Below, piece by piece: positions 36,747-58,215 of a stretch of DNA of 64,000 nucleotides. The translations under genes were made by a program, and so were the position numbers. Source of the DNA: an uncultured Spirochaetota bacterium. Lineage in GTDB: Bacteria > Spirochaetota > Spirochaetia > Treponematales > Rectinemataceae. The stretch's first letter is position 1, and each line of letters opens with the position of its first letter. Location of the stretch: contig CAIJMU010000126.1 in the NCBI GenBank assembly GCA_903821875.1, positions 1 to 64,000 of the forward strand. The letters are read 5' to 3'. The notes below the pieces were generated by a model. The model made no database searches. It saw nothing but the letters and a program-made list of their open reading frames with translations, and had not been told where the DNA came from.

Positions 36747-37838
36747 ATGGCCAAGCAGGCAGCCGCGAAGGGCGGCGGTGGCGGAGGTGGAGGGCAGGCA
36801 GCCGCGCAGCCCGGCAAGAAGGAAAAACCCAAGTCGGTGAAGGACATGAATGGCCGCCAGAAAGCCGCCATATTCCTGGTCACCCTGGGCTCCGAGATCT
36901 CTGCCGAGATTTTCAAGCACCTCCGTGAGGACGAGATCGAGACCCTCACCTTCGAGATCGCCCGTCTTGATTCGGTCGAGTCCGAGCACAAGGACCAGGT
37001 CCTGGCCGAGTTCCAGGAGCTGATGATGGCCCAGGAGTTCATCTCCTCCGGCGGCATCGACTACGCGCGGGAACTCCTCGAGAAGGCCCTCGGATCGCAG
37101 AAGGCCATAGATGTAATCAATCGGCTGACCTCTTCCTTGCAGGTACGGCCCTTCGACTTCATCCGCCGCACCGATCCGGCCCACCTGCTCAACTTCATCC
37201 AGACGGAGCACCCTCAGACCATCGCCCTCATCCTGGCCTACCTCGAGCCCAACAAGTCCGCCTATATCCTCCAGAAACTCCCGCACGAGATCCAGGCCGA
37301 CATAGCCAAGCGCATCGCAGGAATGGACCGGACCTCGCCCGAGACCCTGCGCGAAGTCGAGCGCGTCCTCGAAAAGAAGCTCTCGACGCTGTCGAGCGAG
37401 GATTTCACGGCCGCAGGTGGCGTCGAATCCATCGTCGAGATCCTCAACCTTGTCGACCGAACCTCGGAAAAAGGCATCATCGAGGCCCTTGAGGAAGATT
37501 CGCCGGACCTGGCCGAGGAGATCAAGAAGAAGATGTTCGTGTTCGAGGATATTGTCCTCCTCGACGACCGGTCCATCCAGAAGGTCATGCGCGAGGTCGA
37601 TGCCCAGGAGCTCGCCAAGGCGCTCAAGGGTGTCGACAACGAGGTGCAGGAGAAGATCTACAAGAACATGTCCAAGCGCGCCGCGACGATGCTCAAGGAG
37701 GACATGGAGTACATGGGTCCCCTCCGCCTGAAGGACGTCGAGGAAGCCCAGCAGAAGATAGTATCAATTATCAGGAGTCTGGAAGAGAAGGGCGAGATCA
37801 TCATCTCGCGAGGAGAAGGCGATGAATTGGTCCAATAG
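36747..37838 (+). CDS. fliG: Flagellar switch protein FliG with poly-Gly N-terminus
   Basis: 363 residues. A 35-residue N-terminal extension includes eight Gly in a row (residues 9-16). The usual N domain then starts at NGRQKAAIFLVTLGSEISAEI. The middle EHPQ motif (FIQTEHPQTIALILAYL) and the C-terminal charged torque helix (EDIVLLDDRSIQKVMREVDAQEL) are complete. FliG couples the stator to the rotor ring. GGAG six bases before the ATG. Many spirochaetes carry two FliG; only one is in this window. Confidence 0.96.
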   Translation: MAKQAAAKGGGGGGGGQAAAQPGKKEKPKSVKDMNGRQKAAIFLVTLGSEISAEIFKHLREDEIETLTFEIARLDSVESEHKDQVLAEFQELMMAQEFISSGGIDYARELLEKALGSQKAIDVINRLTSSLQVRPFDFIRRTDPAHLLNFIQTEHPQTIALILAYLEPNKSAYILQKLPHEIQADIAKRIAGMDRTSPETLREVERVLEKKLSTLSSEDFTAAGGVESIVEILNLVDRTSEKGIIEALEEDSPDLAEEIKKKMFVFEDIVLLDDRSIQKVMREVDAQELAKALKGVDNEVQEKIYKNMSKRAATMLKEDMEYMGPLRLKDVEEAQQKIVSIIRSLEEKGEIIISRGEGDELVQ

Positions 37839-40905: not shown

Positions 40906-41538
40906 ATGGCAGGCATCGGCAAACCGCGTGTGCTCGGAAGGGTCGCGCTACTCCTTATTCTCATCATCGCCCTCGTGGCGGGTGGTCTCGTATGGTTCGA
41001 CTGGCTTGGCCTCGTCAATGCCAAGTCGGTGCTTGGTCCCGCCTACCGCCTGGTCGGCATACAGGCCAGGAAGAGCTCGACCATTCCAGTGACCAGTCCC
41101 ACCCTCCTCGACGAGGAGCGCTTCGCCAAGCGCCTCGAATCGCTGACCATCCGTTCCGAAGAGCTCGACAAGCGTGAGTCGGAGCTGGTCAAAGCCGAGT
41201 CCGGTTCCGGGCAGAAGGTGCAGGAGCTCGAGGATAGGGTCCGCGCCCTCGATGATCGAGAGAAATCCTTCAACGAGACGATGAAACAGTACGATGATAG
41301 AAAGGCCAACGTCGCGCAGAATGCCGTCTACCTGACTGGCATGCCGCCGGCGAAGGCCGTGGAGATCCTGAAGGCGCTCGATGACCAGTCGGTCATCGAC
41401 CTCTTCAGGGCTGTCGAATCGCAGGCCAAGGCTGCCGGCACACCCTCCATCGTTCCCTATTGGCTCTCCCTGATGCCGCCGATCCGATCGGCCGACATCC
41501 AGCGGAAAATGACGATCAAGCCCTCCGCCTTCCCCTGA
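40906..41538 (+). CDS. flbB: Spirochaete flagellar collar protein FlbB
   Basis: 210 residues: one N-terminal membrane segment (about 12-32), a coiled coil (about 60-125, ERFAKRLESLTIRSEELDKRE), then a MgtE-N-like domain (VYLTGMPPAKAVEILKALDDQ) as in MotE/FlbB proteins. In spirochaetes FlbB builds the periplasmic collar that recruits other collar parts and supports the stators. Its place after fliJ matches other treponemes. The call is from topology, domain and position. Confidence 0.85.
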   Translation: MAGIGKPRVLGRVALLLILIIALVAGGLVWFDWLGLVNAKSVLGPAYRLVGIQARKSSTIPVTSPTLLDEERFAKRLESLTIRSEELDKRESELVKAESGSGQKVQELEDRVRALDDREKSFNETMKQYDDRKANVAQNAVYLTGMPPAKAVEILKALDDQSVIDLFRAVESQAKAAGTPSIVPYWLSLMPPIRSADIQRKMTIKPSAFP

Positions 41539-43562: not shown

Positions 43563-44954
43563 ATGCTTCGTTCCCTTTTTTCAGGTGTCGCAGGACTCCA
43601 GAACCACCAGGTCCGCATGGACGTGGTCGGTAACAATATCGCCAACGTCAACACGACCGGCTTCAAGAAGGGAAGGGTAAACTTCCAGGATCTCCTCTAC
43701 CAGCAGATGGCCGGTGCATCCAAACCCAACGGCGACGTGGGTGGCGTCAATCCCAAGGAAATAGGACTAGGTATGTCCATCGCCTCGGTCGATACCATCC
43801 ATACCCAGGGGTCCCTCCAGACCACTGGCGTCATGACCGACCTCGCTGTCCAGGGCAACGGATTCTTCGTCCTCAAGAAGGGCGAGCAGACGATGTACAC
43901 CCGCGCGGGCGATTTCGGCCTCGACAAGGACGGGAAGCTCGTCAATCCCGGCAGCGGCCTCCGCGTCCAGGGCTGGCTTGCGAAGACCGTCAATGGCCGC
44001 GATACGCTGACGACCTCAGGGCAGCTCCAGGACATCATCATTCCGGTGGGTTCGAAGGATCCCGCGCGTGCGACGCAGAAAGTCGATCTGGCCTGCAACC
44101 TCGACAAGCGCACGCCCGAGATCCCCCAGGGCTCCGGCGCAGACAGCACCGAACAGGGTACCTGGCGGATCGAGGAAAAGCTCTACGACAGCTTCGGGCA
44201 GGTACACAACCTGAGGGTAGAATTCACGCGGGTAGCAGGACAGAATAACCAGTGGAACGCTGCTGTCAGCGTCGATCCGGAGTCCAAGACCGCGACGAAC
44301 ACCTCGGTGGCCATCGGGCAGCCGGCCACTGGCCAGGCCAATTCCTTCCTCGTCGAATTCGACAACCGCGGCCTTCTCCAGCGCGTGACCGATCGCCAGG
44401 GCGCGAACGCGCCAGCCACCGGCGCCCTCGACATCGGGGTTTCCTTCGACGTGCAGGGCGCGACCGCCCAGGGTGGAACTCCTGCACGCCAGGATTTCAG
44501 GCTCAACCTCGGCACTGTCGGTTCGGCAACGAACACCGTCACGCAATTTGCCGAACGTTCGTCCACGAAGGTCTTCAGCCAGGACGGCTACGCCATGGGC
44601 TATCTCGACAACTTCAAGATCGACCAGACCGGAGGCGTGACGGCCGTGTATTCCAATGGATCCAACCGCTCGATCGGCCAGGTCGCCCTGGCGAGCTTCA
44701 CCAATCCCAATGGCCTCGAGAAGATCGGCGAGACGAACTTCGTCCAGTCAAACAACTCCGGCATGGCCAACGTCGGCCCCTCGGGCATCGCAGGGAAGGG
44801 GAAGATCGTCGCAGGCTCGCTCGAGATGTCGAACGTCGACCTCGCCGAGCAGTTCACCGACATGATAGTGACACAGCGCGGCTTCCAGGCAAACTCCCGC
44901 ACGATCCAGACCGCCGACCAGATCCTCCAGGAATTGCTCGCGCTGAAACGCTAG
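43563..44954 (+). CDS. flgE: Flagellar hook protein FlgE
   Basis: 463 residues. N-terminal SLFSGVAGLQNHQVRMDVVGNN-type signature and C-terminal GFQANSRTIQTADQILQELL are complete. Lys165 (PVGSK) and Cys178 (VDLACNL) stand at exactly the positions that form the lysinoalanine cross-link between neighbouring subunits in T. denticola; this is the only Cys in the protein. Spirochaete hooks are covalently cross-linked polymers, and this one should be too. It is followed by a 248-base structured gap. Confidence 0.97.
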   Translation: MLRSLFSGVAGLQNHQVRMDVVGNNIANVNTTGFKKGRVNFQDLLYQQMAGASKPNGDVGGVNPKEIGLGMSIASVDTIHTQGSLQTTGVMTDLAVQGNGFFVLKKGEQTMYTRAGDFGLDKDGKLVNPGSGLRVQGWLAKTVNGRDTLTTSGQLQDIIIPVGSKDPARATQKVDLACNLDKRTPEIPQGSGADSTEQGTWRIEEKLYDSFGQVHNLRVEFTRVAGQNNQWNAAVSVDPESKTATNTSVAIGQPATGQANSFLVEFDNRGLLQRVTDRQGANAPATGALDIGVSFDVQGATAQGGTPARQDFRLNLGTVGSATNTVTQFAERSSTKVFSQDGYAMGYLDNFKIDQTGGVTAVYSNGSNRSIGQVALASFTNPNGLEKIGETNFVQSNNSGMANVGPSGIAGKGKIVAGSLEMSNVDLAEQFTDMIVTQRGFQANSRTIQTADQILQELLALKR

Positions 44955-45202: not shown

Positions 45203-45400
45203 ATGATCGAGCTGACCCTTCTCTCCGGCAAGCCCTTCCTGATCAACCCCCACCAGATCGAGACTGCAGAAGCCAAACCGGATACGACCCTCCACCTTTT
45301 GTCGGGCAAGACCATCGTCGTGAAGGAATCGATCCCGGAGTTTCTGGCGAAGATCGTCGCGTACCGACGGAGCATCGGAGTCCTTTCGGATACGCCCTGA
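45203..45400 (+). CDS. flbD: Flagellar protein FlbD
   Basis: 65 residues, the small FlbD/YlzI family: MIELTLLSGKPFLINPHQIE at the start and TLHLLSGKTIVVKESIPEFL later. The family is found between flgE and motA in many bacteria; its biochemical role is unclear. Here the next gene is fliL; motA and motB are missing. GGAGG lies before the ATG. Confidence 0.92.
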   Translation: MIELTLLSGKPFLINPHQIETAEAKPDTTLHLLSGKTIVVKESIPEFLAKIVAYRRSIGVLSDTP

Positions 45401-45415
45401 CCGCGGATTGCACGC

Positions 45416-45444
45416 TTTTCAGCCAGACCGCCTTCGTGTATACT
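45416..45444 (+). promoter_or_regulatory. Sigma-70-like promoter before fliL
   Basis: TTTTCA (45416-45421), 17 bases and TATACT (45439-45444) lie 81 bases before the fliL start. Confidence 0.5.
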
Positions 45445-45452
45445 TAATTTCG

Positions 45453-45479
45453 TAATTGCTCGCAAAAGCATTCCGATAA
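45453..45479 (+). promoter_or_regulatory. Sigma-28 promoter before fliL
   Basis: TAAT (45453-45456), exactly 15 bases, and TCCGATAA (45472-45479) match ten of twelve consensus bases of FliA promoters (TAAA-N15-GCCGATAA). The sigma factor gene fliA itself lies downstream in the same string. Confidence 0.65.
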
Positions 45480-45485
45480 TCGGAA
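45471..45485 (+). promoter_or_regulatory. 15-bp perfect palindrome on the sigma-28 -10 box
   Basis: TTCCGAT and ATCGGAA face each other around a single A. It covers the -10 box of the sigma-28-like promoter and lies downstream of the sigma-70-like one, so a bound repressor could block both. Confidence 0.55.
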
Positions 45486-45524
45486 GACCGGTCCGATGTA
45501 CGGGTCGCTGGGGAGGAACTGGCC

Positions 45525-46079
45525 ATGTCCGACAACGTGGATGATCATGATGTCAATTTCGCCGAAGGCGGGGAAGGTGAAGCCGCGCCCGCGAAAGCGA
45601 AGGGCATCGGCCCCGGCATCCTCAAGATACTGATGTTCGCCGGCATAGCCATCGGCGCGATCATACTCATCGTCACGGTCGTGGTCGTCACGATCAACAT
45701 AATGAATGCCAGCGGCAAGACCGTGAAGGAGATGCCGGTCTCCGAGGCCTACCAGGCCTCCACCCCGATCTACCAGTACATCGAGAGCCTCGCGGAAATC
45801 CGGACGAGGACCGCCGATCCCGAACCCCATTCGGCCATAGTCAAGATCGCCATCGGGATGGAAAAAGAAGAGAAGGAAGGACCGGTGGAGGTCAACGAGC
45901 GCGGGCCGCAGATCCGCGACCTGCTTCGTTCGTTCTTTTCAAAGAAGACTGCCGAAGAGCTGGCTCCAGGTCGGGAAGAAGAAGTCAAGATGGAATTGCT
46001 CGAGACCCTCAACGGCATCCTCTCGAAACGCATGGTCAAGGAAATCCTTTTCGAGCGGCTCGATGTCGTCGCCCAGTGA
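45525..46079 (+). CDS. fliL: Flagellar basal body protein FliL
   Basis: 184 residues: an acidic cytoplasmic N-terminus, one membrane segment (about 38-62), and a periplasmic domain ending with ETLNGILSKRMVKEILFERL, the typical FliL end. FliL rings surround the stator units and support torque. Its ATG has GGAGGAACTGGCC upstream. It now stands directly after flbD with two promoters and a palindrome in the 124-base gap. Confidence 0.93.
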   Translation: MSDNVDDHDVNFAEGGEGEAAPAKAKGIGPGILKILMFAGIAIGAIILIVTVVVVTINIMNASGKTVKEMPVSEAYQASTPIYQYIESLAEIRTRTADPEPHSAIVKIAIGMEKEEKEGPVEVNERGPQIRDLLRSFFSKKTAEELAPGREEEVKMELLETLNGILSKRMVKEILFERLDVVAQ

Positions 46080-46129: not shown

Positions 46130-47164
46130 ATGACTGAAGTCCTGTCACAGGATGAGATAGACCAGCTTCTCACCGCCATCAATGCCGGCGAGACCGAGAT
46201 CGAGACGATCAAGCCGACCGCCGATACGCGCAAGATCAAGATCTATGACTTCAAGCGTCCGGACAAGTTCTCGAAGGAGCAGATCCGCACCGTGCAGATC
46301 ATGCACGAGACCTTTGCGCGACTTACGACGACCAACCTTTCGGCGAGCCTCCGTACCCTGGCCCACGTCCACGTAGCCTCGGTCGACCAGCTTACCTACG
46401 AGGAATTCATACGTTCGATCCCGACCCCGACCACGCTTGCCAACGTGAGCATGGATCCCCTCAAGGGATCGGCCATCCTCGAGATCGATCCTTCGATCAC
46501 CTTCACGATCATCGACAGGCTTTTTGGCGGCACGGGAGAAGGCGCGAAGCTCGCGCGTGAACTCACCGACATAGAGCACTCCGTCATGGAAGGCATCATC
46601 GTCCGCATCCTGGGCAACATGCGCGAGGCATGGACCCAGGTCATCGACCTCCGACCCAGGCTTTCACAGATAGAGACCAATCCCCAGTTCGCGCAGATCG
46701 TGCCCCCGACGGAGATGGTCGTCCTCGTGACCCTGGAGACCAAGGTCGGCGATGTCGAGGGGATGATGAACCTCTGCATCCCCTACATCACGATCGAGCC
46801 GATCGTCTCCAAGCTATCGGCGCAATACTGGTATTCCTCGGTGCGCAGGGGCGCGACCTCGGAGAACTTCAACATACTGAAGGACAAGCTCTCGACCGTC
46901 GAGATCCCTGTCATCGCGGAGATCGGGAAGATCAACCTCCCCATCCGCGAGGTTCTCGCGCTACGGGTGGGTGACGTGATCAGGCTCCATTCCGTGCGGG
47001 TCAACGATCCGATGAGCCTCAACGTCGGGACCAAGAAGAAGTTCCTGTGCAAGCCGGGAACGATCGGGAAAAAGATGGCTGTCCAGATCACGAAAAAGCT
47101 CGAGGATGTTGGCCAGGATGAGCTCGAGGAGCTCAGCGGAGAAGGAGAAGACTACAATGGGTGA
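46130..47164 (+). CDS. fliM: Flagellar switch protein FliM
   Basis: 344 residues. The N-terminal CheY-binding motif is VLSQDEIDQLLTAI. The middle CheC-like domain (FDFKRPDKFS-type YDFKRPDKFSKEQIRT, FGGTGEGAK) and the C-terminal SpoA domain (about 260-335, PIRELALRVGDV-like IREVLALRVGDVIRL) are complete. FliM links FliG to FliY in the C-ring and receives CheY-P. It overlaps fliY by eight bases. Confidence 0.97.
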   Translation: MTEVLSQDEIDQLLTAINAGETEIETIKPTADTRKIKIYDFKRPDKFSKEQIRTVQIMHETFARLTTTNLSASLRTLAHVHVASVDQLTYEEFIRSIPTPTTLANVSMDPLKGSAILEIDPSITFTIIDRLFGGTGEGAKLARELTDIEHSVMEGIIVRILGNMREAWTQVIDLRPRLSQIETNPQFAQIVPPTEMVVLVTLETKVGDVEGMMNLCIPYITIEPIVSKLSAQYWYSSVRRGATSENFNILKDKLSTVEIPVIAEIGKINLPIREVLALRVGDVIRLHSVRVNDPMSLNVGTKKKFLCKPGTIGKKMAVQITKKLEDVGQDELEELSGEGEDYNG

Positions 47165-48317
47165 CGCCGCGCTTTCCCAGAACGAGATAGATTCCCTGCT
47201 TCAGGGCTTCGACTCGGGTCCACCTCCCGCGCCCAAAGGCGGCGGAGGCTCGACAGGTTCCGCATCTCCCGAGGCAGCTGCCTTCAAAGGCGTGCTCGAG
47301 AGCTGCGCTTCGGCCCTCTCGCAGGTGATGTCGACCTTCACGAACTCTTCGGCTACGGTGGGATCACCGGTCGTCGACGTCATCAACCGCGATGGCCTCC
47401 TCCGTGAGCTGCCCGAGGAGATCATGGCCGGCAGCGTGCCCTTCGAGGGATCCTTCCCGGGAGAGCACCTCTTCCTGATGCCCAAGGACCTCGCGATAGC
47501 CATAGCCTCGCAGGCCAACGGCGACCAGGGCCTCATGGACCTCGATGACATGTCCATCAACGCCCTCCAGGAATGTGTCTCACAATTGACAGGATCGGAG
47601 ATCAACACTTTCTCGTCGAAGACTTCCAACCAGGGCATAGCCTCCGGCGTCGCCGAGGGATCCTTCGGCCCCAAGGCCATGGCCCGCGTTCCCTCAGGGG
47701 AAATGATGCGAGCGACCTGGTCCGTCAAGATCGGCAATGAAGCGCCGATGCGCATGGTCGAGATCTTCTCCATGACCTTCGCCCGCGACATCATCGCGGC
47801 TTCGGGCGGTGGCCAGAGCCAGGGCGGCAATTCCTTTGGCGGCATGGGTGGGGGAATGGGCGGCGGCATGCAGTCCATGGGACAGGGACAGTCCTTCGGC
47901 GGCGGTGGCGGTGGCGGCGGTTTTCCCATGGGCGGCGGTGGCGGTGGCGGTGGCGGAATGGGTTTCGGTGGAGGCGGTTACGGGCAGCAGATGAATCCAC
48001 CGAATGTCCAGCCTGTCCAGTTCGGCAGCCTCCAGATGGGATCGACGTCCCACGAGTCCGGCAACATAGGCCTCATCATGGATGTCCAGATGGAGATGAC
48101 GGTCGAACTCGGAAGGACCCGCAAGCTCATCAAGGAGATCCTGGGAATGGGCGAGGGCACCATCATCGAGCTCGACAAGCTCGCCGGCGAGCCAGTAGAC
48201 ATCCTGGTCAACCATAAGCTCATCGCCAAGGGCGAGGTTGTCGTCATCGACGAGAACTTCGGAGTGCGCGTAACCGAGATAGTCTCGACGATAGAACGGA
48301 TGTCCGACCTCGGCTGA
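47157..48317 (+). CDS. fliY: Flagellar switch protein FliY with Gly-rich linker
   Basis: 386 residues from the ATG at 47157 (AAGGAG nine bases upstream). The N-terminus repeats the FliM-like CheY-binding motif (ALSQNEIDSLLQGF). A CheC-like domain (about 40-215) follows, then a linker of about 60 residues (217-278) made almost only of Gly, Met, Ser, Gln and Phe, coded by G-rich triplet repeats (47805-47985), then the SpoA domain (TVELGRTRKLIKEILGMGEG). FliY proteins may dephosphorylate CheY; the linker is far longer than usual. Confidence 0.93.
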   Translation: MGDAALSQNEIDSLLQGFDSGPPPAPKGGGGSTGSASPEAAAFKGVLESCASALSQVMSTFTNSSATVGSPVVDVINRDGLLRELPEEIMAGSVPFEGSFPGEHLFLMPKDLAIAIASQANGDQGLMDLDDMSINALQECVSQLTGSEINTFSSKTSNQGIASGVAEGSFGPKAMARVPSGEMMRATWSVKIGNEAPMRMVEIFSMTFARDIIAASGGGQSQGGNSFGGMGGGMGGGMQSMGQGQSFGGGGGGGGFPMGGGGGGGGGMGFGGGGYGQQMNPPNVQPVQFGSLQMGSTSHESGNIGLIMDVQMEMTVELGRTRKLIKEILGMGEGTIIELDKLAGEPVDILVNHKLIAKGEVVVIDENFGVRVTEIVSTIERMSDLG

Positions 48318-56620: not shown

Positions 56621-56650
56621 TTGACGAGTGATTCTCTTTCAGCCTACTCT
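56621..56650 (+). promoter_or_regulatory. Sigma-70-like promoter before the fliA block
   Basis: TTGACG (56621-56626), 18 bases and TACTCT (56645-56650). It could transcribe the membrane protein, fliA, fapA and following genes apart from the long string. Confidence 0.45.
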
Positions 56651-56651
56651 T

Positions 56652-56669
56652 GCCCCCATGGGCGGGGGC
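56652..56669 (+). repeat. Hairpin just before the membrane protein gene
   Basis: GCCCCC and GGGGGC pair around ATGGGC. The 3' arm also holds the likely ribosome-binding G-run for the GTG start at 56677, so the structure may hide it. Confidence 0.45.
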
Positions 56670-56676
56670 CTTCTCG

Positions 56677-57420
56677 GTGAACACTGACCTGCGTGTGACG
56701 CTGGTCGTAGCTGCACTTTCCTCGGTGCTTTCTTTCCTTGTCGGGCTCGTGGCCCGTGTCGGCATCGGGTCGGCGGCACTTCGAGCCCTCGTTTTCGGCG
56801 TGTTGTTCGGCGGACTCGCCTGGGGGGCCATTTTCCTTATGCGTTCTTTCATCCCCGATCTCTTCGAACCCGGAGGCGCCGCCGAGAGCGATGCCGTAGT
56901 AGCTGCGTCCTTCACCGTGCAAGGGGAAGAAGACGATGAGGGGGTCGGTGGATCCCTGGATATCACTGTCGGTGAGGATGACAGCGCGGAGCTCATGGAA
57001 TCTGCTGTATCAGGTGGGACGCTTTCCAGCGATGGAGACGAGCGTGGGGGCAGTGATTCTCTCGGTGAGGCCAGATCAAAGGCGCGCGTCAGTCTTTCAG
57101 GCGACGCGGAAGCGGAGGATGAGGGCACGATCTTCGAGACTGATGCCGCATCCTCGGGTGCGTCGGCAGCTGCAGCGATTCCCCGTCATTCCGCCTCGGG
57201 GAACGAGCAGCTGGACACCCTGCCCGACCTTGAGTCGATAGTGGGTAGTTACGAGCAGCTTTCTGCCGGCGGAGGGGGGGCGTCCTCCACGGCATCTGGA
57301 TCGAACGAAGCCGGGTCGTCGGGCCAGGGCAAAGCCGCAGGATCGGGGCCAAACGGTTCGGATCCCGCTACCCTTGCCTTGGCGGTGCGTACACTCATGA
57401 ACCGAGATAAGAAAGGGTAA
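56677..57420 (+). CDS. Conserved membrane protein between flhG and fliA
   Basis: About 247 residues from the GTG at 56677 (the G-run eight bases upstream); a TTG at 56650 is less likely. Two membrane segments near the N-terminus (about 8-30 and 35-56) are followed by a long acidic, Ser/Gly-rich tail with no fold (about 60-240) that ends in a short helix (TLALAVRTLMNRDKKG). I do not recognise the family. Treponemes also have a small membrane protein here before the sigma-28 gene, so a link to flagellar regulation is plausible but unproven. Confidence 0.7.
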   Translation: MNTDLRVTLVVAALSSVLSFLVGLVARVGIGSAALRALVFGVLFGGLAWGAIFLMRSFIPDLFEPGGAAESDAVVAASFTVQGEEDDEGVGGSLDITVGEDDSAELMESAVSGGTLSSDGDERGGSDSLGEARSKARVSLSGDAEAEDEGTIFETDAASSGASAAAAIPRHSASGNEQLDTLPDLESIVGSYEQLSAGGGGASSTASGSNEAGSSGQGKAAGSGPNGSDPATLALAVRTLMNRDKKG

Positions 57421-57426
57421 GCGAAT

Positions 57427-58215
57427 ATGGTCGAAAACCCTCTTGCGCACCTGAGCGAAGAAGAACTCTGGGCTTCCTACAAGAAGGCCAAGGATCCAGC
57501 TATCAGGGATGCCTTCATCAAGCAGTACGCTCCCCTCGTGAAATACGTCGCGGGCAAGGTGGCGGCGAGCATGCCCAATTCCGTCGAGTTCGACGACCTC
57601 GTCGGTTTCGGCGTCTTCGGACTCCTTGACGCCATCGAGAAATTCGATCCGGAAAAGCATGTCAAGTTCAAGACCTACGCGGTAACCAGGATACGGGGCG
57701 CCATTTTCGATGAACTGCGCTCGATCGACTGGGTACCCCGCTCCGTGCGCCAGAAGACCAAGGAGATCGAGGAGGCCATCGTGGGCCTCGAGTCCACCCT
57801 CGGCCGTCCCGCCACCGACGGGGAGATCGCAGGGTCCCTCGGCATGAGCGAGGAGGAACTCCTCAAGACCATGCTCAAGATCTCCGGTACCTCGGTGCTC
57901 TCGCTCAACGACGTCTGGTACTCGGGGGACGACAGCGACAAGATCTCCATAGGGGAGAGCATCGAGTCCCCCTCGAGCTTCAACCCCGATTCCTCGGTCG
58001 AGCGAGAGGAGATCAAGCGCGTCATCGTGCAATCGATCAGCGAGCTCCCCGAAAAGGAAAAGAAGGTACTCGTCCTTTACTATTATGAGGATCTCACCCT
58101 CAAGGAAATCGGTCAGGTCCTCGAGGTAACCGAATCCCGCGTCAGCCAGCTCCATACCAAGGCCATAATCCGCCTCAGGGCGAAGCTCACGAACATGCGG
58201 AGAGGGATCTTCTAA
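57427..58215 (+). CDS. fliA: Flagellar sigma factor FliA (sigma-28)
   Basis: 262 residues with regions 2, 3 and 4 of the FliA/WhiG family: [20 protein letters not shown] (region 2), [20 protein letters not shown] (2.4 to 3.0) and [20 protein letters not shown] (region 4). It reads promoters of the TAAA-N15-GCCGATAA type; a good match lies before fliL and a weaker one before flgB in this window. No anti-sigma FlgM is encoded next to it. Confidence 0.97.

Follow-up and report, generated by a model that had tools for sequence, protein, structure and literature searches.

Loss of Treponema-type motAB from the flbD-fliL site of a Rectinemataceae spirochaete that encodes a stator of a different subfamily elsewhere

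The stator of the bacterial flagellar motor, MotAB, is an ion channel that acts on FliG to turn the rotor, with a general architecture of five MotA subunits around two of MotB. In the spirochaete Treponema denticola the stator genes lie within the fla operon, in the order flgE-flbD-motA-motB-fliL-fliM (PMC6930189). A case of two stators is that of Shewanella oneidensis MR-1, where a MotAB of low identity, thought to be laterally acquired, has been added to the resident PomAB, both being kept and mixed in one motor (review PMC9039648). As to the driving ion, Na+ is bound by T158, T185 and T186 in the Na+-driven PomAB of Vibrio alginolyticus (8brd, 8bri), whereas in H+-driven stators positions 158 and 185 are Ala and position 190 is Ile (PMC10374538). 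A further mark of H+ drive, taken from the MotB of Bacillus subtilis, is V-A-S in the transmembrane segment (PMC6677748). No report of a stator replacement in spirochaetes was found in the open-access literature, and a 2025 survey of MotAB evolution names the Spirochaetes once, a term search of it giving neither horizontal transfer nor replacement (PMC12505986).

The DNA analysed here, called the window throughout, is a stretch of 64 kb from the genome of an uncultured member of the Rectinemataceae (4.68 Mb, 97% complete). According to the domain matches, it holds a flagellar block that is otherwise intact and in order (flgC, fliE, fliF, fliG, fliH, fliI, fliJ, fliK, flgD, flgE, flbD, fliL, fliM, fliN, fliO, fliP, fliQ, fliR, flhB, flhA, flhF, flhG and fliA), and on both sides of the flbD-fliL junction the gene order is that of the T. 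denticola operon. However, while T. denticola and some relatives from the window's own family keep motAB in place, here flbD and fliL are separated by only 124 bp (Table 1), and a domain search gave no MotA or MotB match anywhere in the 64 kb. An earlier note on this DNA had described the missing stator genes, the otherwise intact block and the flbD-motA-motB-fliL order of treponemes; all three descriptions hold, the last one also in the related genomes that we compared. Within the block, FliN (47106-48317) is a protein of 403 aa with a long glycine-rich linker ahead of its C-terminal domain, and two predicted proteins, in the fliJ/fliK (40906-41538) and flhG/fliA (56650-57420) intervals, have no Pfam match.

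Table 1. Features of the flbD-fliL site, its surroundings and the stator genes on contig C155 (positions refer to the window unless a contig is given)
Feature	Position	Strand	Evidence or remark
fliG, rotor partner any stator must work with	36747..37838	+	PF01706 3.2e-48
flgE, hook protein, upstream flank of the site	43563..44954	+	PF07559 2.8e-24, PF06429 9.2e-18
flbD, left border of the missing motAB	45203..45400	+	PF06289 1e-22
flbD-fliL junction, 124 bp, without motA-motB	45401..45524	+	sequence; motA-motB fills about 1.5 kb at the site in relatives of the old stator type
sigma70-like promoter TTTTCA-N17-TATACT, the retained fliL promoter	45416..45444	+	same composite element before fliL in relatives with and without motAB
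sigma28-like element TAAT-N15-TCCGATAA	45453..45479	+	sole such match in the 64-kb window, both strands
fliL, right border	45525..46079	+	PF03748 6.5e-10
fliM, yardstick for vertical inheritance	46130..47164	+	PF02154 5.8e-84; 87-96% identity within the family
probable fliA, flagellar sigma factor	57427..58215	+	sigma70 regions 2, 3 and 4; FliA name inferred from position in the flagellar block
replacement motA	C155:86083-86868		PF01618 7.3e-28, PF20560
replacement motB (position of the plug domain)	C155:86887-87054		PF13677 2.8e-23, PF00691 (OmpA) 8e-16

The genome is not devoid of a stator. A profile search found exactly one MotB_plug match and one MotA, both on contig C155; a second PF01618 match turned out to be ExbB, with ExbD next to it. 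The two genes adjoin in one putative operon (C155 86083-87621) and carry the MotA_ExbB domain and the MotB_plug and OmpA domains expected of a stator pair. In the alignments, the channel aspartate of MotB (D25) is invariant, as are E86, K87, R89, E97 and E98 of the charged, FliG-facing torque helix of MotA. The conservation of both suggests that this stator should engage the same rotor, and the pair most likely drives flagellar rotation. Stator genes are thus present elsewhere in the genome, as the earlier note had envisaged, but they are not the missing pair. MotA and MotB of C155 are only 37% identical to the canonical pair, that is, the one found between flbD and fliL, of two genomes of the same family (G002 and G010), whereas the same comparison gives 89-90% for FliM, 78-80% for FlgE and 56% for FliL. 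With the MotA of the other family members that lack the canonical pair (hereafter, replaced genomes) identity rises to 69-86%, the highest value being that of a second species of the genus, which carries the same stator.

Phylogenies of MotA and of MotA plus MotB both separate the canonical from the replacement type. The C155 pair does not cluster with the MotAB of Treponematales in either tree, and groups instead with those of G030, G350 and G408 and of scattered families elsewhere in the phylum. Over the phylum, the replacement type is spread across G093, G060, G194/G210, G124/G209, f8, f2 and the window's own family, f1. While the canonical type follows the tree of core flagellar proteins, with G002 and G010 beside G051 and G057, the replacement type departs from it: G030, from another family of the order, groups with G350 and G408, from another order, with supports of 98/94 and 100/98, although deep support within the replacement clade is modest (81-90). 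Judged by these sequences, the C155 pair is a member of a different MotAB subfamily and does not derive from the flbD-fliL site. A search for donors beyond the phylum, limited by the use of exact peptide seeds, gave closest matches of about 36% and no donor lineage. A fragmentary motA, L098 (Zod), was left out.

How common this arrangement is was examined by a MotB search in all 30 genomes of the family. MotB is present in ten, of which eight carry the replacement type and two (G002 and G010) the canonical one. In an eleventh flagellated genome, G018, a canonical motA starts after flbD but is cut off by the end of the contig, leaving its first 38 codons; the remaining 19 lack both MotB and FlbD and therefore look non-flagellated. 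The old stator is thus in place in three of the 11 flagellated members and replaced in eight, and the direct flbD-fliL adjacency recurs in seven genomes other than that of the window (the second species of the genus and six more), so that the junction comparison proposed in the earlier note finds the same gap there. Outside the family, an identical pattern occurs in G030, from a different family of the order, and in two genomes of another order (G350 and G408); the latter belong to a family, f8, with two canonical members (G146 and G326), and the exchange in f8 is a case separate from that of the window's family. All 11 replaced genomes at the level of order or class join flbD directly to fliL and encode a complete motAB elsewhere. 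Each has a single MotB and none has two sets of MotAB, the old and the new stator never occurring together; two MotB matches were found only in G168, which belongs to neither group. Unlike S. oneidensis, which keeps both stators, the replaced spirochaetes have no native one. In canonical genomes motA-motB follows directly 3′ of flbD, except in G018, owing to the contig end, and in G052, where motA adjoins flbD, motB is absent from the next 1.3 kb and is located on another contig.

The earlier note had also considered that, if relatives all lacked motAB here, the trait would be ancestral and not a local deletion. The absence in eight of 11 flagellated members does indicate a trait older than this species, but, with motAB in place in the other three, it does not simply go back to the ancestor of the family. 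The AU test does not reject a tree that unites all eight replaced genomes in one clade (p-AU 0.20). A placement of G002 firmly inside the replaced group, which would imply several losses, had a support of 100/96 under one model but was not firm under a mixture model or the AU test, and was discarded.

The surroundings of the replacement pair differ among relatives. In one replaced genus (G003 and G015), motA-motB lies directly downstream of cheD and in the same direction, as cysE-(small ORF)-motB-motA-cheD, whereas the canonical G002 and the replaced G004, whose stator is elsewhere, have cysE-(small ORF)-cheD with no motAB between, that is, an empty site; the small lysine-rich ORF was judged by eye to be the same. 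In the window's genus, from G000 and G001 combined, motAB lies a few kb off, flanked by a short gene adjoining the atp operon and by a hydrolase gene. The pair therefore occupies at least three places within a single family, a pattern more in keeping with acquisition and movement than with vertical descent from one ancestral location. Third-position GC of the pair is low in the window's genome (0.66-0.69 vs 0.81-0.82 for flgE and fliM) but not in G003, G004 and G008, so composition alone proves nothing.

Some further observations concern these neighbourhoods. An F-type ATP synthase operon lies 1-6 kb from the replacement motAB in G000 (C155), G003 and G015, and in G030 motAB directly follows atpC, on the opposite side of the operon; the linkage is absent in G004, G008 and G017. 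This ATP synthase is encoded by ten of the 11 flagellated family members and by none of the eight tested among the 19 genomes without MotB and FlbD. The idea that its presence decides the stator type was rejected, since G002, G010 and G018 combine an F-type enzyme with the old stator and G408, G060 and G093 have the new stator without it. In G003 and G015, the replacement motAB, cheD and an MCP-like gene have a flgM-like gene in their vicinity (recognized by eye; L077 17214-17555). The rpoB gene of G030 (G030:C62:3485-7782) is split among several reading frames, which points to indel errors in the assembly.

The 124 bp left between flbD and fliL hold two promoter-like elements: the sigma70-like one begins fifteen bases past the end of flbD, and the sigma28-like one comes after it. 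The motif TGTATACT followed by CCGATAA precedes fliL in all replaced genomes of the family, with a spacing that is wider in the window's species than in the others. Both parts are also present in the motB-fliL interval of G002 and G010, which have kept motAB, and so the junction contains the old fliL promoter: the loss removed motAB and spared the promoter. Summed over ten genomes, the sigma28-like sites before fliL score 100, against 74.9 +/- 2.4 in shuffles, with scores near chance in the control regions before flbD and fliM. Before the replacement motA, the sum over 17 genomes is 155 against 128.6 +/- 3.2 in shuffles, although single sites, the one in the window's species among them (p about 0.1), are weak. 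From these sums we infer sigma28 control of the replacement motAB, probably a late flagellar operon with a sigma28-like promoter of its own, and the product of the probable fliA would be expected to read such promoters.

Taken together, these data favor, with a probability of about 0.85, a history in which the Treponema-type motAB was lost and its function most likely taken over by a stator of a different subfamily encoded elsewhere. A motAB of that subfamily would have been acquired, for which horizontal transfer is the best reading, and the old pair then lost from the flbD-fliL site, keeping the fliL promoter so that fliL-fliM and the downstream genes could still be transcribed. The flagella would be driven by the incoming MotAB, arranged about the same FliG/FliM rotor. 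On this reading, the exchange took place inside the family of the window and, as a separate event, in one or more other lineages.

Of the two outcomes proposed in the earlier note, a specific loss or a relocation of the stator genes, the first stands, with motAB gone and the fliL promoter kept. A move of the original pair within the genome followed by divergence would explain why every genome of the order or class lacking motAB at the junction has a complete set elsewhere, but it is hardly credible when MotA has fallen to 37% identity beside a FliM at 89-90%, when the pair sits in a separate clade and not as sister of the G002/G010 pair, and when T185A and A190I (PomA numbering) are common to distant spirochaete families and to Bacteroidota/Ignavibacteria. 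More serious, though still improbable, is an ancestor of the class or phylum that had both stators, its descendants each retaining one. The scatter of the replacement type over the phylum agrees with this, sorting would explain the mutual exclusion no worse than transfer does, and a similar picture would result from repeated differential loss; however, no replaced genome still has both stators, G030 is placed with another order, and the gene contexts differ, the site being empty in one genome of the old type.

The probability that motAB was simply dropped during assembly, C155 being a contaminant, is negligible. Although the assembly consists of 193 contigs and one of them stops 65 bases from motB, the junction is ungapped and internal to contig C126, and its recurrence in relatives excludes an assembly effect; the second species of the genus, moreover, has the same stator, and contamination is estimated at 0.3%.

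Whether the exchange also changed the driving ion can be approached through the residues mentioned above. Like PomA of V. alginolyticus, every canonical MotA from the order and from f8 has Thr at 158, 185 and 186 and, at 190, a residue that is small or polar, either Ala or Ser. The replacement MotAs, in contrast, all have T, A, T at the same three positions and Ile at 190, sharing Ala 185 and Ile 190 with the H+-driven MotAB of B. subtilis and Campylobacter jejuni (6ysl, 6ykm), but retaining Thr at 158, where H+-driven stators have Ala. In MotB of the window's species, the segment VLYAMSS preserves V, A and S of the B. subtilis VLYASSS, the last position being variable in relatives. T185A and A190I, together with V-A-S, thus suggest a switch from Na+ to H+. 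This reading is held back by Thr 158 and by the MotA of the 0.9-Mb Borrelia-like genomes, which is also T, T, T although Borrelia burgdorferi has been reported as H+-driven from its paralysis by protonophores (PMC7225975). That exchange of the whole stator, instead of point mutation, repeatedly and convergently turned Na+-fuelled periplasmic flagellar motors of spirochaetes into H+-fuelled ones is consequently a tentative proposal, which we consider rather doubtful.

Additional stators have usually been described as just that, additions leading to hybrid motors, whereas here the native stator of a motor with periplasmic flagella has apparently been fully displaced. The absence of motAB from the main flagellar cluster of a genome should consequently be taken with caution as a sign of lost motility. 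Moreover, this family has both types of stator on nearly identical rotors (FliM 87-96%), and so offers natural pairs for tests of ion choice and rotor compatibility.
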